Shown: piece after piece, positions 11,788 through 49,234 of the stretch
Layout: each line of letters starts with the position of its first letter
How positions within the stretch are numbered: position 1 is the first letter of the stretch
Source: Actinospica acidithermotolerans
GTDB lineage: Bacteria > Actinomycetota > Actinomycetes > Streptomycetales > Catenulisporaceae
Assembly: GCF_018139625.1 (NCBI RefSeq)
Contig: NZ_JAGSOH010000029.1
Location: forward strand, 1 to 64,000
DNA: 64,000 nucleotides
Reading direction: 5' to 3'
Translations under genes and position numbers: made by a program
Notes under the pieces: model-generated
Seen by the model: only the letters and a program-made list of their open reading frames with translations
The model's database searches: none
What the model was told of the DNA's origin: nothing

Positions 11788-14700
11788 ATGGCCGGGCGGT
11801 GGGAGTTCTGGGTCGATCGGGGCGGGACGTTCACAGACATGGTCGCCAGGCGCCCGGACGGAAGCCTCGTGGCGCACAAGCTGCTGTCCGAGGATCCGGC
11901 GCGGTACGAGGACGCGGTGATCGCGGGAATCCGCGAACTGCTCGGCGTCCGCTCCGGGCAGCCGGTTCCGGCGGAGCTGATCGGCTCGGTGAGACTGGGG
12001 ACCACGGTCGCGACCAACGCGCTGCTGGAGCGCCGGGGCGAGCCGACGATCCTCGTCATCACGCGCGGTTTCGCCGATGCTCTGAGGATCGGCTACCAGA
12101 ACCGGCCGCGCATCTTCGCGCGCGAGATCGTCCTGCCGGAACTTCTGTACGCTCGCGTGATCGAGGCCGACGAACGGCTCGGAGCGCACGGTGAGATCGT
12201 CGTGCCGCTCAACGAGGACGCGGTCGCGGACGGGCTCAGGAGCGGCTACGCGGAGGGTTTCCGCTCGGTGGCCGTGGTGTGCGTACACGGATACCGCTAT
12301 CCCGAGCACGAATCGCGGATCGGGCAGATCGCGCGGGCGATCGGGTTCACCCAGGTCTCCGAGTCCCATCGGACGATCCCCCTGATGAAGCTGGTCTCCC
12401 GCGGGGACACGACCGTCGTCGACGCGTATCTTTCGCCGATCCTGGCACGCTACGTGGACAGCGTGGCACGGGAGCTCGGCGGTGTCAGGCTGCTGTTCAT
12501 GCAGTCCAACGGCGGGCTCGCGGACGCCCTGAGGTTCCGCGGCAAGGACTCGGTGCTCTCCGGGCCGGCCGGCGGGATCGTCGGAATGGCCCGCACCAGC
12601 GCGGCGGCCGGCTTCGAGCGCGTGATCGGCTTCGACATGGGCGGCACCTCGACGGACGTGTCGCACTACGCCGGCGAGTTCGAGCGGCAGTACGAGACGG
12701 AGGTGGCCGGGGTGCGGATGCGCGCGCCCATGCTGAGCATCCACACCGTGGCAGCCGGAGGCGGCTCGATCCTGCACTTCGACGGGGCCCGGTATCGGGT
12801 CGGGCCCGACTCGGCGGGGGCGCATCCAGGCCCGGCCGCCTATCGCATGGGCGGTCCGCTCACGGTCACCGACGCCAACCTCCTGCTCGGCCGCATCCAG
12901 CCCGAGTGCTTTCCGCGGGTCTTCGGCCCCTCGGGCGACCAGCCGCTCGACACGGCGGTCGTCGGTGCCGGCTTCGCCGCGCTGGCGCGTCGGATCACCG
13001 CGGCCACCGGCGATCGGCGCGGTGCGGAGCAGGTGGCGGCAGGATTCCTGCGGATCGCGGTGGCCAACATGGCGAGTGCGATCAAACGGATCTCGATCCA
13101 GCGCGGTTACGACGTCACGCGCTACGCTCTCGCGACATTCGGCGGTGCCGGCGGGCAGCATGCGTGCGCCGTCGCAGACGAGCTCGGCATCACCCGGGTG
13201 CTGGCCCATCCGCTCGCCGGCGTCCTGTCCGCCTACGGCATGGGCCTGGCCGACGTCATCGCGATGCGTGAACGGGCGGTGGAGGAGGCGCTCTCGCCCA
13301 GCGTGGAACCGAGGCTTGAGGAGGTGGCCCGCGAACTCGAGGCCGACGGCCTCGCGGAACTGCGCGCGGCCGGAATCCCCGACGACCGGATCCGCAGCGA
13401 GCGCCGTGTGCAGCTGCGCTATGCGGGGACCGACACGGCGCTGCCCGTCGTCATGGGCCCGGCGGCCGAGATGCTCAGCGCGTTCGAGGCGACGTATCGC
13501 CGGAGGTTCTCCTTCCTGATGCCCGACAAGCCGATCGTGGCGGAGGCGGTATCGGTCGAACTCATCGGGGGACCCGGGCTGCTGTCGGGGGCGGAGGCGG
13601 TATCGGTCGAACTCGTCGAGGGACCCGGGCTGCCGTCCGGGGCGGAGGCGGAATCGGTCGAACTCGTCGAGGGATCCGGGCTGCCGTCGGGGGCGGGCGC
13701 CCGGCCCGCGCACTCGGGCGCGGCCGCACGCGGCACGCCCGTCCCGGCGGGGCGGGTCCGGATGTTCGCGGACGACGCGTGGCGCGAGGTGGACCTGTTC
13801 CATCGCGCCGACCTGCGGCCCGGAGACGCGGTGCCCGGCCCGGCCGTCATCGCGGAGCGGTTTGCCACAACGGTCGTCGAGCCGGGCTGGCGTGCCGAGG
13901 TGACCGATCTCGGCGATCTGCTGCTGTCCCGGTCGAGCGCGCCCCCGCGGGCGGCGGCCGTGGGCACCCGGGCCGATCCGGTCATGCTGGAGATCTTCAA
14001 CAACCTATTCATGTCAGTTGCCGAACAGATGGGGGCGCGCCTGCGCGGGACCGCGCACTCGGTCAACATCAAGGAGCGTCTCGACTTCTCCTGCGCCGTC
14101 TTCGATGCCGAGGGCAACCTGATCGCCAACGCGCCGCACATCCCGGTCCACCTCGGATCGATGGGCGAGAGCATCAAGATGGTCGTCCGCCGGAACGCGG
14201 GTCGCATCAAGCCAGGCGACGTGTACGTGCTCAACGACCCGTACCACGGGGGCACGCACCTGCCCGACGTCACCGTCGTCACCCCCGTCTTCGACGAACA
14301 GGGCTCTGAACTCCTCTTCTTCGTCGCCTCGCGCGGCCACCACGCCGAGATCGGCGGCATGACGCCGGGATCGATGCCTGCCTTCAGCACCCGCGTCGAG
14401 CAGGAGGGTGTGTTGATCGACAATTGGCTGCTCATCGAGAATGGCGTGCTGCGTGAAGACGAGACGCTTCAACTGCTGGCCTCTGCGGAGTACCCGTCGC
14501 GCAATCCGGTCACGAACGTCGCGGACCTGCGCGCCGAGGTCGCGGCCAATGAGAAGGGCGTGCGTGAACTGGGCCGCATGGTCGAGACCTTCGGCCTCGA
14601 CGTCGTCCACGCGTACATGGGCCACGTGCAGGACAACGCGGAGGAGTCGGTGCGCCGCGTCATCTCCGCCCTGCACGACGGCGAATACGCGTACGAGATG

Positions 14701-20556: not shown

Positions 20557-20589
20557 GGCACGAGCCTAATACGCGGCGCCGACAAATCC

Positions 20590-20720
20590 GGATCAAGGAG
20601 TAGGCGCGGGCCCGCGCGAGCGCCGTACCGGATCAAGGAGTACGTGCAGGGCCCGCGCGAGCGCCGTACCGGATCAAGGAGTACGCGCATGGCTCGCGCG
20701 AGCGCCGTACCGGATCAAGC
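20590..20720. repeat. 40-41-bp tandem repeat, three full copies and a partial one
   Basis: Units starting GGATCAAGGAGTA and ending GAGCGCCGTACC occupy 20590-20629, 20630-20670 and 20671-20711, followed by a partial GGATCAAG. They fill most of the 194-bp gap between the divergent rarA and GNAT genes. The copies differ at a few internal bases. They could affect either promoter. Confidence 0.9.
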
Positions 20721-23591: not shown

Positions 23592-23789
23592 GGTGGCCGG
23601 CGCGTCGGCGCGTAGCCGGCGCGTCAGCCGCCGTGCGCCAGCCGGCGCAGGGTCTCCTCGGGCTCGCGGCAGAGCCCGAGGTGCACCGGCGGTGGCCGGC
23701 GCGTCGGCGCGTAGCCGGCGCGTCAGCCGCCGTGCGCCAGCCGGCGCAGGGTCTCCTCGGGCTCGCGGCAGAGCCCGAGGTGCACCGGC
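23592..23789. repeat. Perfect 99-bp tandem duplication of the DUF3037 gene end
   Basis: Positions 23592-23690 and 23691-23789 are identical over 99 bp. The right copy holds the last 21 codons and the stop (23723-23725) of the minus-strand DUF3037 gene; the left copy repeats the same codons and stop downstream as non-coding sequence. Complete identity points to a recent event or ongoing slippage or conversion. Confidence 0.95.
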
Positions 23790-29822: not shown

Positions 29823-31373
29823 ATGAGCAGCGAAGGGTCCAGATCCGGGCGGTCCGGCCACCTCGTCCGCGGCGGCCTCGTCGGCCTGGTCGCGGGCGGT
29901 GCCGGCCTCGCGGTGGGCGAACTTGTGGCGGTGGTCACGGGCGAGGCGTCCTCGCCCGCGGTGGCGGTCGGCCAGTGGGCCATCGGCCACACGCCGACCT
30001 GGCTCGAGCAGTTCGCGATCCGCAACTTCGGCACCGGCGACAAGCGGATGCTGCTGATCGGCGTGTACGCGGTGCTGGCGCTGGCCTCGGCGGGCGCCGG
30101 AGTCCTGGCGCGCACCCGCCTGACGGCGGCGAGCTGGGTCGCCGCGTGCTTCGGGCTCGTCGGCATGCTCGCCGCGGCGACCCGGCCGAACGCCGGTCTC
30201 AGCTATCTGCTTCCCTCGCTGCTGGCCGGGGTCACGGCGGTGCTCGTGCTGCGCTGGCTGACGATCCTGGCCGCGGCGGACTCGGACGAGCGGGCCGGCC
30301 GCGAGGAGCGGCGCCGCTTCCTGCTGGGGATCCTCGGCACCGCGGCGGGCGCGCTGGTCGGCGGGTTCGGCGCGAAGGCCTGGATCGACAGCCGGTACGA
30401 CGCCGAGGCCGCGCGGTCCACGGTCGTGCTGCCGAAGCCGGAGACCGCCCTCGCCGAACCGCCCGCCTCGGTGCATCCGAACGTCTCCGGGCTCGGGCCG
30501 TTCTTCACGCCGAACTCGCAGTTCTACCGCGTGGACACGGCGCTCTCGATCCCGCAGGTGAATCCGGACACCTGGAAGCTGCGGATCCACGGCATGGTGA
30601 GCCGGCCGTTCGAGATCACCTTCGATGAGCTGCTCAAGTACGCGTTCGAAGAGCACGACATGACACTCACCTGCGTGTCCAACCCGGTAGGCGGCTCGTA
30701 CTGCGGCAACGCGCGCTGGCTCGGCACGCCGCTGGCGCCGCTGCTGCGCCGGGCCGGAGTGCAGTCGGGCGCGGACATGATCCTCTCGACGTCGACCGAC
30801 GGCATGACGATCGGCTCGCCGGTCGAGGCGACGCTGGACGGCCGCCAGGCGATGCTCGCGGTGGCGATGAACGGCGAGGTGCTGCCGGTCGAGCACGGCT
30901 TCCCGTGCAGGATGCTGATTCCGGGCCTGTACGGGTACGTGTCGGCGACGAAGTGGGTGACGGACCTCAACATCACCACGTTCGCCTCGTCGTCCGCGTA
31001 CTGGACGCAGAACGGCTGGTCTCCGCAGGGCCCGGTGAAGACGGCGTCGCGGATCGACGTGCCGAGCGACAACGGCACGGTCTCGGCGGGTACCGTCACG
31101 CTCGCGGGTACGGCGTGGGCCACGCACCGCGGCATCGCGGCGGTCGAGGTGCAGATCGACAAGGGCGCCTGGCAGGAGGCGTCGCTCGCGGCCTCCGACA
31201 CGCCGGACACCTGGCGCCAGTGGGTGTATCAGTGGCCGAACGCCGCGCGCGGCTCGCACACGGTCGCCGTGCGCGCGACCGACGGCACCGGGACCACGCA
31301 GACCTCCGTGGTCGCCGACCCGGTTCCGGACGGCGCGACGGGTTACCACACGATCACGGTCCAGGTGGCGTAG
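29823..31373 (+). CDS. Membrane-anchored molybdopterin-dependent oxidoreductase (sulfite oxidase family)
   Basis: A 516-residue protein. Residues 1-195 contain about five membrane helices (for example LVRGGLVGLVAGGAGLAVG and LLPSLLAGVTAVLVLRWL), the last following a basic RRRFLLG that looks like an internal twin-arginine-type signal. The SuoX-like molybdopterin domain (about 235-400) has MTLTCVSNPVGGSYCGNARW, whose first Cys should ligate Mo, and a C-terminal Ig-like dimerisation domain follows (VSAGTVTLAGTAWATHRG). The exoplasmic substrate is unknown; sulfite or S-/N-oxides are family possibilities. TAGAGT 6 bp before the ATG suggests a leaderless mRNA. Confidence 0.85.
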   Translation: MSSEGSRSGRSGHLVRGGLVGLVAGGAGLAVGELVAVVTGEASSPAVAVGQWAIGHTPTWLEQFAIRNFGTGDKRMLLIGVYAVLALASAGAGVLARTRLTAASWVAACFGLVGMLAAATRPNAGLSYLLPSLLAGVTAVLVLRWLTILAAADSDERAGREERRRFLLGILGTAAGALVGGFGAKAWIDSRYDAEAARSTVVLPKPETALAEPPASVHPNVSGLGPFFTPNSQFYRVDTALSIPQVNPDTWKLRIHGMVSRPFEITFDELLKYAFEEHDMTLTCVSNPVGGSYCGNARWLGTPLAPLLRRAGVQSGADMILSTSTDGMTIGSPVEATLDGRQAMLAVAMNGEVLPVEHGFPCRMLIPGLYGYVSATKWVTDLNITTFASSSAYWTQNGWSPQGPVKTASRIDVPSDNGTVSAGTVTLAGTAWATHRGIAAVEVQIDKGAWQEASLAASDTPDTWRQWVYQWPNAARGSHTVAVRATDGTGTTQTSVVADPVPDGATGYHTITVQVA

Positions 31374-31500
31374 TTCCGGCGTCAACGGCGTTCGGGCACG
31401 ATGCTCTTCGCGTGCTGCACGATGGCGTCCAAGTGGCGTAGTACCGGCGTCAACGGCGTTCGGGCACGATGCTCTTCGCGTGCTGCACGATGGCGTCCAG
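31365..31500. repeat. 68-bp tandem duplication at the Mut7-C gene end
   Basis: Copies at 31365-31432 and 31433-31500 differ at two bases. The right copy contains the last 16 codons and the TGA of the minus-strand Mut7-C gene (stop at 31450-31452); the left copy repeats them downstream and overlaps the final codons of the convergent oxidoreductase. Confidence 0.9.
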
Positions 31501-32187
31501 GTGGCCGGCGTGCGCCCCGCGCCAGTAGGCCTGACCGCACTCGGAGCACTCGGCGAAGGTCTCGTACGTGCGCTGGGTGCCGGAGGGCAGCCGGTCGCCC
31601 ATCTCCTCCTTGGAGATCTCGCGCAGCTCGCCGTTGCAGGAGGTGCAGCGCGTCCACGGCGCGAGCGGCGGCGCGAAGCGGGTGAGCACCTCATCGAGCT
31701 GCTGAGCCGGGCGGTTGCTGTAGATGTAGGCGCCCGCGAACAGCTCGCGGCGGTGCAGCAGGCCGCGGTCGCGCGAGAGCATGATGCGCTCCTCGGCCGC
31801 CGATTTCGCGGCGAGGGCCGCGTCACCGACGTCAGGGTTCTCATATGCCGTGTCCAGGCCGAGCAGCCGCATCCGCCGAGCGAGCGTGCCGAGGTGGATG
31901 TCGAGCAGGAAGCGCAGCGGCGCACCCGCGCCCGGTGCCGGCTGCGGCAGGCCGACGGCCTCGACCTCGAGGTACTCCCCCGCCGCCGGAACGTGCCCGG
32001 CGCTCACCGCGGCGCCGTCCACCCGCAGCGCGCCGACCTCGGTCAACGGCACGCCGAGCGACTCGACGACGTGGCCCAGCGTCGAAACGCCGTCGCAGCG
32101 AACCGTCGCCCCGGCCGTGCGCTGCGCGGGACCGACGAACAGGTGCAGGCGCGGGTCGAAGGCGACCTGGATCTCCACGGGCTCCAT
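31450..32187 (-). CDS. Mut7-C RNase-domain protein with N-terminal ubiquitin-like domain
   Basis: A 245-residue protein. Residues 1-85 form a ThiS/ubiquitin-like domain (Mut7-C ubiquitin), and the PIN-like Mut7-C RNase domain follows, beginning RFLLDIHLGTLARRMRLLGL with acidic residues in IMLSRDRGLL. It ends in a zinc ribbon with CTSCNGEL and CSECGQAYW. The combination is conserved in bacteria and is thought to be an RNA nuclease; no target is known. It is divergent from the HAD gene across 68 bp. Its 3' end is tandemly duplicated. Confidence 0.85.
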   Translation of the reverse strand: MEPVEIQVAFDPRLHLFVGPAQRTAGATVRCDGVSTLGHVVESLGVPLTEVGALRVDGAAVSAGHVPAAGEYLEVEAVGLPQPAPGAGAPLRFLLDIHLGTLARRMRLLGLDTAYENPDVGDAALAAKSAAEERIMLSRDRGLLHRRELFAGAYIYSNRPAQQLDEVLTRFAPPLAPWTRCTSCNGELREISKEEMGDRLPSGTQRTYETFAECSECGQAYWRGAHAGHLDAIVQHAKSIVPERR

Positions 32188-42971: not shown

Positions 42972-43709
42972 CTACAGGGCCGACTCCACCGTGATCACGA
43001 TCGTGCTGAGGCCGTGGCGCAGGTCGCGGAAGACGAGGCAGCCGTCCCGGTCGACCATCTTCCACACCGCGAAGCTCGTACCGGCGACCAGCGGGGCGCG
43101 CAAGGGGACGCTGACGTCGACCACTTCTCCGGGTTCGGTGCGCGGGATCGGGACGCTTGGCGCAGATGCGAGGACCGTCGGGCCGTCACACGGGCCGACA
43201 CGTGCCAGTTGCATGCCCACCCAGGGTTGGCCGCCGTCGTTCCGGATGCGCCAAGTCTTGGTGATCTCCGCGCCCCGCTCGACTACTGCGCCGTCCGGTG
43301 TCACGTCCGCTATAAAGCTGCTGCGCTCGCCGTGAACTCCGACCGCGGCTCCGGATGGTTCCTCCGTCGGCCAAAGTTGTAGCGGAGTCTGCCCTGGCGG
43401 CAGGGGCCTGCCCCCGATCATGGGAGCTCGGGCTGTCAGGTACATCGTGCTCAGCATCCCGTCACCGCCGAAACACGTGTCGTAGCGGGTCACCAGTACA
43501 TGGCTGGGCCGATCGCGTCCGCGCTCCACCAGGGAGAGGTGGCTCTTGCTCGCGCCTACCCTTTCGGCAGCGGCGGCGAGGCTGGCCCCCGCCCGTTCAC
43601 GCAGGAGCCTCATCGAGTGCCCGAGCAGTAGCCAGGTTTCGCTCTTGTCGACCAAGATCCGATTCACCCCCACGTTTGGGCATCGCCAAACCTCATCAGC
43701 AGCGTACAT
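42972..43709 (-). CDS. XRE-family regulator with NBR1 FW-like (four-tryptophan) domain
   Basis: A protein of about 245 residues. An N-terminal helix-turn-helix of the XRE type (MRLLRERAGASLAAAAERVG, then ASKSHLSLVERGRDRPS) is followed by an Ig-like domain (VVERGAEITKTWRIRNDGGQ, then PGEVVDVSVPLRAPLVAG). The latter resembles the NBR1 FW domain, known in eukaryotic autophagy receptors and found in some bacterial DNA-binding proteins. The start is uncertain: the ATG at 43709 is used, but GTG codons near 43667 are possible, and the frame is open to 43874. An inverted repeat TTTGG-N6-CCAAA at 43675-43690 could be an autoregulatory site. It borders an atypical patch on its upstream side. Confidence 0.6.
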   Translation of the reverse strand: MYAADEVWRCPNVGVNRILVDKSETWLLLGHSMRLLRERAGASLAAAAERVGASKSHLSLVERGRDRPSHVLVTRYDTCFGGDGMLSTMYLTARAPMIGGRPLPPGQTPLQLWPTEEPSGAAVGVHGERSSFIADVTPDGAVVERGAEITKTWRIRNDGGQPWVGMQLARVGPCDGPTVLASAPSVPIPRTEPGEVVDVSVPLRAPLVAGTSFAVWKMVDRDGCLVFRDLRHGLSTIVITVESAL

Positions 43710-43979
43710 TCTGGCAAGTGTCCGAGGCGAGAATATCCCTGATCCGGCGACGCGGCTTCCTACTCTGAGATGTACAGGCGTCCAGGGAAAGGAGAGTTTG
43801 GTTCCGCGCAGCGCACAGCCCGTTCTGCTCCTGCTCTGACCACGCACCCTGCCAGTCGTACGAATGTCGCCCATCAGACCCCGGCAACATCACAGGCCAC
43901 ACCAATCTCGCAGGCGGCCAGGGCAGTAGATTTTTTCGCACCACTTATTGCGGCATCTGTAGAGGTGAGGAGGAAATTC
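43710..43979. other. Gene-free, AT-richer stretch between the divergent XRE and zinc-ribbon genes
   Basis: No convincing ORF is found in these 270 bp; the plus-strand frame open from 43770 has no recognisable protein before 43980. The stretch holds a T6 run (TAGATTTTTTCGC) and is visibly poorer in GC than its surroundings near the right end. It probably holds the promoters of both neighbouring genes. Confidence 0.5.
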
Positions 43980-44141
43980 GTGACCGTGCACGAGGAGCGT
44001 TATTGCCCTCAATGCAAAAAGAAAGTTAGAATGATTCGCTGCGAAGTCTGCAAGGGGAGGGGCGGCACCGCGACAACGCAGTGTCGTAATGCGTGCAAGC
44101 AGCATGGCTGGCTGTGCCCTAAGCATGGCAAGGACTACTGA
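43980..44141 (+). CDS. Small zinc-ribbon protein, unknown function
   Basis: A 53-residue protein from the GTG at 43980, with AGGAGGAAATTC placed ideally upstream. It has three metal-ligand pairs: RYCPQCKKK, IRCEVCKGRGG and a C-terminal CRNACKQHGWLCPKHGK. The middle CxxCxGxG resembles one half of a DnaJ zinc finger. Codons ending in A or T (AAA, TAT, ATT, AGA) are much more frequent than in neighbouring genes, suggesting foreign origin. It precedes another unknown gene by 91 bp. It may bind nucleic acid or protein; no family name can be given. Confidence 0.6.
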   Translation: MTVHEERYCPQCKKKVRMIRCEVCKGRGGTATTQCRNACKQHGWLCPKHGKDY

Positions 44142-44896: not shown

Positions 44897-46231
44897 CTAT
44901 CCCGCGCCCAAGTGCGCAAGCACTGCCTGGTGCGCGGCCCAGCCGTCCGGAAACTTGACGGCGACGCCCAGGCGGACGGGCTCGGCGTGGGGGTGGGCGT
45001 CGAGGAGGTCGGCGATGCCGGCGCGGCCTACGACGATGCACGCGTGACGATGCCTCGATAGCAGGACGCAGAGGCGGCCGGTCTCGAGGTGGAAGGCGGT
45101 CGCGTCGCGGCGGCCGGACAGGGGGTGCAAGACGATGGTGACGTCGTACTCGCGGCCCTGGAGGCGGTTCGCGGTGTCGACGGTGACGTCGGCCAGGCCG
45201 CGTGCGGCTCGGTCGGGGCGGGCGAGAGCGGCGCGGACCGCGGCGGCCTGGTCGCGGTGGGCGGTGCCGATGGCGATGCGGTCGGGGGTGACTTCGCGCT
45301 CGTAGCCGGCGGCGCGGTCCACGGCGATGGCACGGCGCTGGACCAGGCGGTCCGCCAGCGCCGCGCAGGCCTCGACAGCCTCGGCGTCGGTGCGGATGGT
45401 GTGAGCGGCAGGGAGGCCGTGCCAGGACCAGCCGGTCTCGGCGGCCAGTTCGAGCGATTCGTCGAGATCGGAGGACGAGGCCGCGACCGCGAAGCTCAGG
45501 GCTCTGTCTTCCAGGTCGCTGCCCGCGTCGAACGGGGTGAAAGGGTAGAACGCCTTCGCGACCAGCGGCGCGGCCGTCGCGGGCAGGCGCCAGGAGTACG
45601 GGAGGCGGTGCACCGGCAGGTGCGGGTTGTGGGCGCGGACGACGGCTACGGCGCTGTCGCTCGGGTCCCAGGGCGATCCGGCCCACGCGTCCGTGTCGAC
45701 TGTCGCGAAGGGATCGAGTTGGCCGGGGTCGCCCACGAACAGGGCGGTGCCGTTCGCGAAGCGCGGGGCTACGGCGAGCAGGCCGTCGGAGCGCATCTGG
45801 TACGCCTCGTCGAGGATCGCCCAGGGGAACTCGCCCTCTTTGACCAGCGCCCACTTGGCGGCGGTGGCGAGGACGATGCCGGCCGCCGCGAGTTCGGGGA
45901 GCTTGGAGGAGAACGCCAGGTTCGGGCCGCGGAACGGGGCCAGCCGCTCGGGGACCTCGTAGTCGCCCGCGGTCAGGCGGCCGAGGACGAGCGCCGGGTG
46001 CTTCTGGGCGATCTTCTCGACGAGGTCGTCGACCTGCTCGTTCGTCTGGGCGACGATCATCACGCGCTCGCCGTCTCTGGCCAGGCGTTCGGAGAGTTCG
46101 ACGACGAGGGTGGACTTGCCGGCCCCGGGCGGCGAATCGACGATGACGCCGCGGTGGGCGCGGGAGAGCAGGTCGGCGGCCACGGCCTCGATGACGGCCC
46201 GCGCTTCAATGGATCGGGTTGACGCCGTCAT
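44897..46231 (-). CDS. Upf1-like SF1 DNA/RNA helicase
   Basis: A 444-residue SF1-type helicase. Motifs in order: Walker A VIVDSPPGAGKSTLVVEL, motif Ia VMIVAQTNEQVDDL, Walker B WAILDEAYQMRSDG, motif III LFVGDPGQLDPFA, motif IV YSWRLPATAAPLV, motif V TVDTANRLQGREYDVTIV and motif VI LLSRHRHACIVVGRAG. The helicase core is nearly the whole protein, without accessory domains. The ATG at 46231 is preceded by GAAGGGGG. It is the last gene of an operon with a Cas4-like nuclease and an unknown protein. It probably unwinds DNA in repair or defence; an RNA role cannot be excluded. Confidence 0.8.
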   Translation of the reverse strand: MTASTRSIEARAVIEAVAADLLSRAHRGVIVDSPPGAGKSTLVVELSERLARDGERVMIVAQTNEQVDDLVEKIAQKHPALVLGRLTAGDYEVPERLAPFRGPNLAFSSKLPELAAAGIVLATAAKWALVKEGEFPWAILDEAYQMRSDGLLAVAPRFANGTALFVGDPGQLDPFATVDTDAWAGSPWDPSDSAVAVVRAHNPHLPVHRLPYSWRLPATAAPLVAKAFYPFTPFDAGSDLEDRALSFAVAASSSDLDESLELAAETGWSWHGLPAAHTIRTDAEAVEACAALADRLVQRRAIAVDRAAGYEREVTPDRIAIGTAHRDQAAAVRAALARPDRAARGLADVTVDTANRLQGREYDVTIVLHPLSGRRDATAFHLETGRLCVLLSRHRHACIVVGRAGIADLLDAHPHAEPVRLGVAVKFPDGWAAHQAVLAHLGAG

Positions 46232-46464
46232 CACAGGACCCCCTTCCCGGAGCGACGGGCGGGTCGGGTGCCGGCACGGCCAACGGCTCCAGTGCCAGCG
46301 GGGCGATCGGCTCCGGCGCGGCCAGCGGCTCCAGTGCCAGCGCGGCGATCGGCTGCGGCACGGCAATCGGCTCCGGCACGGCCAACGGCTCCGGCTCCGC
46401 CCCGGCCAACAACTCCGGCGCCGGCGCTCTCTTCGGCGGGTGACAGTGCCATCGCTAGCGCCAC
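46231..46464 (-). CDS. Possible 77-residue Ala/Gly/Arg repeat ORF between operon genes
   Basis: A GTG at 46464 inside the end of the 504-residue gene opens a frame whose TGA overlaps the helicase ATG (TGATG). The product is almost entirely Ala, Gly, Arg and Asp, with 14-residue repeats such as RAGADRPAGTGAVG encoded by 42-bp DNA repeats. The exact end-to-end overlap would couple translation through the gap. It may simply be an open frame in repeat DNA, so the call is tentative. Confidence 0.25.
   Translation of the reverse strand: MALAMALSPAEESAGAGVVGRGGAGAVGRAGADCRAAADRRAGTGAAGRAGADRPAGTGAVGRAGTRPARRSGKGVL
46273..46394. repeat. 42-bp tandem repeats between the unknown gene and the helicase
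   Basis: Two 42-bp units (46273-46314, 46315-46356) that differ at a few bases are followed by partial units at 46357-46374 and 46375-46394. All share GGCACGGCCAACGGCTCC-like cores. They occupy the 223-bp gap inside the nuclease-helicase operon. Confidence 0.85.
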
Positions 46465-47969
46465 TCCTCGGCCTGGTCCTCAGCGCGGGCGACGTGCGGC
46501 CACGGGGGGCCGCCGTGCGTCCACGGGGTCTGATCGGCGTCCGGGAGCTCGGGGCGGGTGCCGCGCTGCTCGGCGAGGAACGTGGCGTAGCAGCGCTCCT
46601 CGCCGACCGCCGGGACGCTGCCCGCCTCCGGCGTCTTGCCGCGGCCCATGCCGCTCTGCAGCTCGAGTTCGACCTCGAAGCCGCCCGCCTCGGCCGGCCG
46701 CACGGCGAGCAGCCGGACGGTCTGGTTGACGCGCGCGGGGCTGGCGAGCTTGACGCCGGGGCGCAGGATCACCTCGTCCTGCGTCTGCATGACCACCAGC
46801 GGACGGGGCCAGGCGCGCTTGCCCTTGATCTCCTGGCGCTCGGCGTCGACGAAGGTGATCCGGCCCGCGAACGCCTCGCCGCCGACGCGGTAGCGGGCGA
46901 GGACGAGCGGGTCGTCGATGGCCTGAGTGCGGTCGTAGCTCTGCTGCGCGGATTCCAGGTCGGCGAGCCTGCGCGCGGCGGCTACGGCGCTGGGGCGCTT
47001 GGGCTGCGGCGGGGCGCCGTCTTCTATCCCTGTCATGAAGTCGGTGAAGCGGCCGCGGTCCACCTGCCAGCGCAGTTCGTCGGACGCCGCCGCGGGCATC
47101 GCGCGCAGCACGTCGATGCCGCGCCAGACCGTTTCCCACGTGGGCTCCAGCTGCGCGGCGAGCGCGGCCCGCAGCTCCTCCTCGGCCTTCGCGACGGCGC
47201 GCATGTCGTCCGCCGCACGGGCCTCCTCCTGCGCGCGCACGAGGGGCGCGAGGACTCCGGTGTCGAAGGCGGGGTCGGTGGCCGGGCCGGCCGGGGGCAC
47301 CGCGTCGGGGTCCTCGGCGAGCAGGGCCGCGGCCGCGCCGCTCATACCGTCCGGCGGGTCGATCCAGCTCAGCAGCGCGGGCAGGTGCTGGTCCTCCAGC
47401 GCGCTCTGGCCGGTCGCCCAGTGCTGGGCGAGCACGGACGTCAGGGCCAGGCAGACGCTCGATCCGGGCATCGGCGCGCGGTCGTCGGCGAACCAGGTGA
47501 GGTAGCGTCCGAGCAGCGGCACCCGCGCGTCCACCGGGTACGGTCCGTCCACGGTCCGGAAGCGCGCGGAGCGGCCGAGCAGCCGCAGCGCCTCGACGCC
47601 GCCGGGATTGGGCAGGATCAGCTGCGGCGCGTCGGTGCAGCGCTCCCACTCCTCGTGGTTCTTCGTCGCCTCGACGGTCTCCGTGTGCTGACGCCGCGCG
47701 TCGATGTACGGCACGAGCAGTTCGGCGAACGCGGTCAGGAACTCGAAACGCTGGTCGCGGTTGCGCGGCTGGGCCACGACGAGCAGCGTCGGCGCGTCGC
47801 GATCCGTACCGGCCATCACCGCGAGCGGCGCCGCCGCCTCGCCGGCCTGCATCAGCGGGATGACGACGAGCGGTTCGTCGGAGACGTGCACGTGCCGCAC
47901 CGCGGTGATCGGCACGGCGCGGCCGCCGCGAGCCGCCCGCGCCCGCGCGAGCGCCGTCAGGGTGCTCAT
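46455..47969 (-). CDS. Protein of unknown function in the nuclease-helicase operon
   Basis: A 504-residue protein I do not recognise. It opens with an alpha/beta region (TAVRHVHVSDEPLVVIPLMQ, APTLLVVAQPRNRDQRFEFL). The middle is helical and Ala/Glu-rich (VRAQEEARAADDMRAVAKAE), and it ends in a beta-rich part (RITFVDAERQEIKG, VILRPGVKLASPARVNQTVR) that could be an OB- or SH3-like nucleic-acid-binding fold. No signal peptide or membrane helix is seen. The ATG overlaps the stop of the nuclease gene by 4 nt, so it is tightly linked with it and with the helicase. A bridging role in a complex is inference. Confidence 0.6.
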   Translation of the reverse strand: MSTLTALARARAARGGRAVPITAVRHVHVSDEPLVVIPLMQAGEAAAPLAVMAGTDRDAPTLLVVAQPRNRDQRFEFLTAFAELLVPYIDARRQHTETVEATKNHEEWERCTDAPQLILPNPGGVEALRLLGRSARFRTVDGPYPVDARVPLLGRYLTWFADDRAPMPGSSVCLALTSVLAQHWATGQSALEDQHLPALLSWIDPPDGMSGAAAALLAEDPDAVPPAGPATDPAFDTGVLAPLVRAQEEARAADDMRAVAKAEEELRAALAAQLEPTWETVWRGIDVLRAMPAAASDELRWQVDRGRFTDFMTGIEDGAPPQPKRPSAVAAARRLADLESAQQSYDRTQAIDDPLVLARYRVGGEAFAGRITFVDAERQEIKGKRAWPRPLVVMQTQDEVILRPGVKLASPARVNQTVRLLAVRPAEAGGFEVELELQSGMGRGKTPEAGSVPAVGEERCYATFLAEQRGTRPELPDADQTPWTHGGPPWPHVARAEDQAEEWR

Positions 47970-49234
47970 CCGTCGGCCTCGGACCCGCCGGCGGCCCGGG
48001 GCGCGACCCGCAGCGCCTCGTCGTACGCTCGGGCCGCGGCACGCAGCAGCCGCGCCGCTTCGTGCTGGCCGGAGCCGGCTCCCGCGGTCCCGTCCGCGAT
48101 CTCAAGGGCCTCGGACAGGGATTCGATCCCGCCGAGCGCGTCGCGCACCGAGCGGCCGAGCGCGTCGGCGGCGCCCGCGGCCCTGGCCTCGGAGCGGCAG
48201 TGGAACGCCATCTCGCAGTTCGTCACGCACTCCGGGGCGTATCTGGCCTCGATCATCGTGAGCGACTTGGTCAGCTCGACGGCGCTGCGGTGCTCGCGTC
48301 CCGGCTCGCCCTTCGCCTCGGGCGGGTCGACCGCGAGGTCGAAGTCGACGGCCGGATCGAGATCCGCGATCAGCGCGCCTATCCGCGGCAGCCTGGCCAG
48401 CTGGCGTTCCACGGCGGCGATCTGCCGGCGCACGTCGAGCAGGTGCGCGCTGGGCTTGTTCGCGAAGTCCGTCGGGCAGATCAGCAGCACGTCGTCGGCG
48501 ACGATCGCGGGATCGACGCCGAGTTCGGTGAAGAGTCTGCGCAGCGCGAGGACGTACACGGCGGCCTGGGTGGCGGCGGCGCCCACCTTCGCCGGATCGG
48601 CCTGGCCGTCGATGACCGCGAAGGACTTCACCTCGGCGACGTAGAGCCGCGCGGGGGCGCTCGCGGACGCGTCGGCGGGACGGGCGCTGAGGGCGACAAC
48701 ATCGGGTTCGACGTACGCGGTGCGCCCGCCGACGTCGAGCCGCAGCAGCGGATGGTCGGCGAGCAGCGGCTCACCGGCCGCGACCCGCGCGAACGCCTGG
48801 CGGGTGCGCTCGTAGCGCGCGGCGCGGTCGAGGTTCACCGGCGCGGCCGGATCGGCTTCCGGTTCGACGCCGAGGTCGACGTATTCGTGCTCGGGGACGT
48901 CGAAGCGCAGCGGCTCGGCGCGCAGCAGTTCGAGCAGTGCGGCGCAGTTGTCGGCCTTGACCTGCTTCTCGAAGGCGAGGCCGCGGGTGATCGCGAACGG
49001 CGACTGGCCGTATCGCGCCGGGAAGCCGATCCGCTCCGCGAGCTTGCGCTTGTCCACGCCCGCCGCGTCCAGCACGGCCCGGCGCGAGCAGCCGGGATTC
49101 ACGGTGAGCGCCGCGATCGTGCGCGCGTCGTGGCTGCGCGGCGGTACCGGTCCGCGCAGAGCGTCGAGCCGCGCCGCGGTGCCGGCGGGCCCCGGTGCGG
49201 CTGTGGCCTGAGGAACGGAAGGTGACATGGGCAT
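47966..49234 (-). CDS. Cas4/RecB-like PD-(D/E)XK nuclease with Cys cluster
   Basis: A 422-residue protein with a RecB/Cas4-type nuclease core: AYVEPDVVALSARP supplies the metal-binding Asp, LYVAEVKSFAVIDG the ExK pair, and AATQAAVYVLALRR the QxxxY motif. The C-terminal CVTNCEMAFHC, with an earlier GCSRRAVLD Cys, could hold a [4Fe-4S] cluster as in Cas4, AddB and Dna2. The ATG at 49234 is preferred; a TATCGT hexamer lies about 10 bp upstream. It is the first gene of a three-gene operon ending in an SF1 helicase. No CRISPR array or cas genes are present, so a CRISPR adaptation role is unlikely. Confidence 0.75.
   Translation of the reverse strand: MPMSPSVPQATAAPGPAGTAARLDALRGPVPPRSHDARTIAALTVNPGCSRRAVLDAAGVDKRKLAERIGFPARYGQSPFAITRGLAFEKQVKADNCAALLELLRAEPLRFDVPEHEYVDLGVEPEADPAAPVNLDRAARYERTRQAFARVAAGEPLLADHPLLRLDVGGRTAYVEPDVVALSARPADASASAPARLYVAEVKSFAVIDGQADPAKVGAAATQAAVYVLALRRLFTELGVDPAIVADDVLLICPTDFANKPSAHLLDVRRQIAAVERQLARLPRIGALIADLDPAVDFDLAVDPPEAKGEPGREHRSAVELTKSLTMIEARYAPECVTNCEMAFHCRSEARAAGAADALGRSVRDALGGIESLSEALEIADGTAGAGSGQHEAARLLRAAARAYDEALRVAPRAAGGSEADG

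Follow-up and report, generated by a model that had tools for sequence, protein, structure and literature searches.

A three-gene actinomycete operon that probably encodes a DNA2-like helicase-nuclease in separate subunits

The three genes described here, from Actinospica acidithermotolerans, probably encode one DNA2-like helicase-nuclease made as separate subunits, a DNA-end-processing enzyme with paralogues that appear to have been recruited against foreign DNA. This reading draws on gene order, catalytic and Fe-S motifs, the folds of predicted structures, distribution, and the contexts of the paralogues. The operon is located on the minus strand of the window (the whole stretch of DNA analyzed, 64,000 nucleotides), where a nuclease gene, a middle gene, and a helicase gene follow one another from 49234 to 44897 in the same direction (Table 1).

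Table 1. Coordinates of the window operon and of a super-cluster containing a paralogue
Feature	Coordinates	Strand	Description
Gene 1, nuclease	47966..49234	-	422 aa, Cas4/DNA2-type (iron-staple) PD-(D/E)xK
Gene 2, middle subunit	46455..47969	-	504 aa
Spacer, middle gene to helicase	46232..46454	-	42/18-bp GC-rich tandem repeat
Gene 3, helicase	44897..46231	-	444 aa, SF1 (Upf1/DNA2-like) motor
Super-cluster	L134 3289-19622		SbcCD / G4-nuclease-middle-helicase / Wadjet

The original prediction of a split DNA2-like nuclease-helicase module at this position is supported by motifs, folds, and conserved order, and the three-gene set itself is confirmed. Nuclease-middle-helicase order is kept in 75/78 loci (a few of which duplicate each other), so that the lack of conserved order that was to speak against the prediction did not materialize, and homologues with the same arrangement exclude chance open frames. 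The exceptions are a locus at a contig edge (L008) and a genome, G204, which enters the set as two overlapping loci and in which ~36 kb separates the middle gene from a helicase on the same strand (C1 3133232-3169162, part in L160). At a Micromonospora qiuiae locus (L003, 9515-10448 and 2085-5165), a RhuM-family gene separates the middle gene from the helicase, and a PLD/ResIII/DUF3427 helicase and a transposase are also found nearby. The tightness claimed for the operon stands for genes 1 and 2, which overlap by 4 nt, but not for the helicase, which is preceded by a repeat-rich spacer of 223 bp; a comparable gap is absent in most relatives outside Actinospica. The helicase most likely starts at the ATG at 46231, judging from GGAAGGGGG just 5' of it. 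The TTG at 46366, which opens the helicase frame, is a less likely start; its 45 added codons would translate the spacer repeat.

Genes neighboring the operon in the window are ordinary, encoding an ABC transporter, a SpoIIE-type phosphatase, a STAS protein, and a P450, and no cas genes were seen among the scanned flanking genes. Also present are an HTH regulator with a C-terminal NBR1-like Ig domain (N_BRCA1_IG; 42972-43874, minus strand) and, downstream of the operon on the opposite strand, a small open frame with a cysteine-rich, zinc-ribbon-like C-terminal part (43770-44141, plus strand). Elsewhere, the window contains near-perfect tandem repeats at 23592-23789 (99 bp), 13539-13696 (51 bp), 20588-20719 (41 bp), and 31359-31505 (68 bp).

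Gene 1 fits the Cas4-like nuclease with candidate Fe-S cysteines that was originally predicted. Its motifs are all intact, namely, C49, EPD at 176-178, ExK at 201-203, QxxxY, and C336-x3-C340-x5-C346. The four cysteines C49, C336, C340, and C346 are invariant in all 85-87 homologues having those columns, as expected for an iron-staple cluster, and are candidate Fe-S ligands. Absence of the nuclease motifs from homologues, likewise named as evidence against the prediction, was not seen, with D178 found in 84/86, E201 in 79/86, and K203 in 80/86 aligned sequences. Searches of Pfam, NCBIfam, PADLOC, and PDB sequences gave nothing useful for the nuclease, and matches to designed repeat proteins were set aside as they look compositional. 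The predicted structure (mean pLDDT, 85) gave a best Foldseek E of about 4e-4, and a second structure aligner matched it to Cas4 (7mi4, Z 9.9), EXO5 (Z 9.1), and DNA2 (Z 7.9), as well as to AddB.

Some copies depart from the catalytic pattern. In four duplicated second copies of Streptomyces (L036, L142, L143, and L144), ExK has become LxR with the Fe-S cysteines and helicase motifs intact, and these copies are probably nuclease dead. In Acrocarpospora, Spongiactinospora, and Herbidospora (L018, L020, and L021), ExK has become AxK and the Q of QxxxY has become E, which may mean that the catalytic acid has migrated; this change is seen in three sequences only. The loss of nuclease residues in some copies suggests that nuclease activity is not indispensable everywhere.

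Gene 3 encodes the Upf1-like SF1 helicase that had been predicted, matching Pfam AAA_11/AAA_12 and, among PDB sequences, DNA2, SMUBP-2 (IGHMBP2), and Upf1; its PADLOC matches are partial and to helicases such as MkoA. Walker A, Walker B, GDPGQLDP, SWRLP, and the core of motifs V/VI show little or no variation across 87-89 sequences. The protein comprises RecA domains 1A and 2A only. Just ~30 residues precede Walker A, which leaves no room for a Upf1-like stalk and 1B barrel, and the gene aligns with IGHMBP2 from residue 206 onward only.

The middle protein has homologues in Actinospica, Micromonospora, Planosporangium, Plantactinospora, Actinomadura, Streptomyces, Acrocarpospora, Spongiactinospora, and Herbidospora, with no significant match in Pfam, NCBIfam, PADLOC, or PDB sequence searches. 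Its predicted structure (mean pLDDT, 85.2; pTM, 0.82) returned no Foldseek match at E <= 0.001. With the second structure aligner, all high-scoring rows for residues ~31-301 are DEDD exonuclease folds, including PolB exonuclease domains (Z up to 9.9), RNase T (Z 8.2), and 3'hExo (Z 8.0). Residues ~325-480 match a helicase stalk and 1B barrel, as found in IGHMBP2 (Z 9.8), senataxin (Z 8.2), and Sen1 (Z 8.1), and unrelated beta-barrels stay at Z < 7. At the DxE site, the middle protein reads P38-L39-x, with P38 in 85/88 homologues and position 40 variable, and the DEDD-like domain is thus predicted to be inactive, in a register taken from the predicted structure. In addition, residues 325-474 align with IGHMBP2 6-149 in model comparison, and since gene 3 takes up the alignment from 206, genes 2 and 3 look like complementary pieces that would jointly make one complete Upf1-like SF1B helicase. 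The original prediction had seen a possible separate loader here; going by Z scores of 8-10 for a structure predicted from 16 sequences, the protein is instead most likely an inactive DEDD-exonuclease-like domain joined to the helicase stalk/1B, and hence the middle of the same enzyme.

Phylum-wide, the middle protein is rare (14/396 genomes, 4/237 genera); it is found in 7/14 genomes of the window's family and in 187/199 Streptomyces genomes (184/194, or ~95%, of good genomes), the counted genus being taken as Streptomyces because named Streptomyces loci fall within its clade. Folded to the nearer end, the Streptomyces copy lies at 0.36 of the chromosome (IQR, 0.34-0.39; 34 genomes, several with rounded lengths). 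None of the phage and viral contigs searched carries the middle protein. Most defense genes are neither near-universal nor positionally fixed. Near-universality in Streptomyces, a fixed place, no phage carriage, and the ordinary neighbors in the window together favor chromosomal maintenance over mobile defense.

In duplicated copies, the nuclease gene is immediately preceded by a fourth gene, G4. It encodes about 250-360 aa with an N-terminal coiled coil, has no Pfam match, and, by eye, may continue into a winged helix after the coiled coil. In Actinomadura, Micromonosporaceae, Acrocarpospora, Herbidospora, and Nonomuraea, the only copy likewise has G4 ahead of it; the gene is absent from the window operon and the core Streptomyces copies. 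Action of G4 in trans, where the operon is without it, was rejected, as it is encoded nowhere in 16/16 such genomes. In two tree clades, a second SbcCD flanks the four-gene operon divergently (12/12 loci in one clade and 4/4 in the other), with an SbcD fragment only in L149 and broken SbcCD frames in L135; the housekeeping SbcD, where checked, is located elsewhere. In 7/12 loci of the first of these clades, Wadjet follows immediately downstream and in the same direction, as type I in L134, L135, and L151 and as type II in L131, L146, L147, and L149. No Wadjet was found adjoining the window operon, the core copies, or other G4 copies. Finally, some copies are found on two Streptomyces plasmids and close to the ends of replicons, with 6.8 kb to the end in G483 and ~21 kb to either end in G443 and G517. 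With G4 and SbcCD, and sometimes Wadjet, the paralogous engine probably destroys broken or foreign DNA.

From these observations, we infer assembly into one complex, 5'-3' polarity, a DNA-end or 5'-flap substrate, and a maintenance role. In the proposed mechanism, the gene 1 Fe-S nuclease, the gene 2 scaffold (an inactive DEDD-like domain with stalk/1B), and the gene 3 ATP motor would assemble together. The motor and the 1B/stalk would translocate on single-stranded DNA, probably 5'-3' by analogy with Bad and DNA2, and would feed that strand to the nuclease for trimming of 5' flaps or for end resection in the service of chromosomal maintenance. For the paralogues, SbcCD might open or sense ends for the helicase-nuclease, in parallel to Mre11-Rad50 with DNA2 or HerA-NurA. 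Wadjet cuts circular plasmids (PMC10586767), and a helicase-nuclease beside it could degrade the linear products. More tentatively, and with considerable doubt, the split DNA2 could carry out core DNA-end resection in Streptomyces and its actinomycete relatives, and the four-gene paralogue with SbcCD and Wadjet could be a composite machine that linearizes, resects, and degrades invading circular DNA. If so, no earlier SF1 helicase known to us would take its 1B element from a dead exonuclease encoded as a separate chain.

The paralogue contexts raise the alternative that the module serves mainly in anti-phage or anti-plasmid defense, as the paralogues beside Wadjet may. Their place directly upstream of Wadjet type I or II, and the copies on plasmids and near chromosome ends, point in this direction. 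Against this, the window copy has no defense neighbors and no Wadjet nearby, the near-universal Streptomyces copy keeps its fixed position, and Wadjet is enriched at Streptomyces chromosome ends (PMC10482375), so that shared geography could explain part of the linkage, although finding both types of Wadjet in the same place speaks for something beyond it. We consider a mainly defensive module unlikely, and the antiviral role originally suggested, which does fit the duplicated paralogues elsewhere, is not supported for the window locus, a near-universal gene set in a fixed place among ordinary neighbors, with genes 1 and 2 unmatched in PADLOC.

Alternatively, the middle protein could be a DNA-binding or regulatory subunit in its own right, with gene 3 a complete motor alone and the likeness to DEDD and 1B folds reflecting only a common beta arrangement. 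The lack of sequence matches and of a Foldseek match at the threshold used is in keeping with this idea, which we nevertheless hold to be improbable: the barrel matches are to the family to which the operon partner belongs, were obtained without reference to that partner, and span the part it is missing, and unrelated barrels score lower. A similar weighing applies to action on RNA or R-loops, as known for Upf1, senataxin, and Sen1. Resemblance of the middle-protein barrel to senataxin and Sen1, and helicase scores with Upf1, agree with an RNA substrate, but DNA2 is also among the best helicase matches, the nearest nuclease folds are DNA nucleases (Cas4, EXO5, DNA2, and AddB), and SbcCD and Wadjet, with which the paralogues are paired, are both DNA systems, which makes this reading very unlikely. 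A split helicase-nuclease that processes DNA ends is the interpretation we prefer.

Streptomyces chromosomes are linear, and the handling of DNA ends is a central problem for them. The high conservation of the module in this genus offers tractable genetics for finding what bacterial DNA2-like enzymes do in the cell. In addition, the linkage of paralogues to SbcCD and Wadjet suggests a route by which Wadjet cut products may be cleared, and their pairing with SbcCD parallels that of Mre11-Rad50 with DNA2 in eukaryotes and with HerA-NurA in archaea.

We found no published description of the split operon in a literature search with thin coverage of subscription papers and no bioRxiv preprints, and several known systems resemble it in part. 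Eukaryotic DNA2 shares its nuclease and helicase folds with genes 1 and 3 of the window; it is one chain, and we know of no DEDD-like domain in it. Archaeal and bacterial HerA-NurA is described as a helicase-nuclease pair that acts with Mre11-Rad50, analogous to the SbcCD-linked paralogues. The motor and nuclease families of HerA-NurA are, however, unrelated to those of the split module. Cas4-UvrD fusions and operons likewise join a Cas4-like nuclease to an SF1 helicase, but this helicase is UvrD-like with 3'-5' polarity, and a middle protein is not described there (PMC5704561).

TM0106-type proteins (TIGR03491 plus AAA_11/AAA_12) fuse a RecB/Cas4-like nuclease, an RNase H-like domain (RNase_H_2), and a Upf1-like helicase in one chain, in an order that matches the three separate genes of the window. 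Profile comparison by hhalign of the split and fused forms gave P 5e-24 for the helicase and P 0.0013 for the nuclease, and was not significant for the middle protein against the fused middle region (P 0.14). RNase_H_2 (PF13482) has no match in the middle protein, and most fused proteins keep its DxE intact (D-F-E). None of the three window proteins matches TIGR03491 (NCBIfam), and neither the window genome nor 20 relatives had a match over the cut-off. Mutual exclusion of the two forms was considered and dropped for lack of evidence, with 14 versus 48 of 396 genomes and one shared where ~1.7 would be expected.

Bad, from Geobacillus, is the one bacterial architectural relative for which we found biochemistry. 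It is a single chain of 1245 aa with a four-cysteine Fe-S nuclease and a 5'-3' motor, rare and sporadic in its distribution, and its central domain has no known homology according to its authors (PMC7430649). By this published description, Bad and the window module are both laid out as an Fe-S PD-(D/E)xK nuclease, then a middle part, then an SF1B helicase, whereas the module is made from three genes and is near-universal in Streptomyces. With DNA2/Bad-type enzymes more generally, it shares the four-cysteine iron-staple pattern, RecB-family motifs, and an SF1B Upf1-like helicase (1B being in gene 2, by predicted structure), and differs in that nuclease and helicase are separate genes in the loci examined. 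Since it is not a single chain and does not match the TIGR03491 model, we do not file the module under Bad or the TIGR03491 family; the most fitting name for it is a split, three-gene form of the Bad kind, and in layout it is closest to Bad and the fused TM0106-type proteins.
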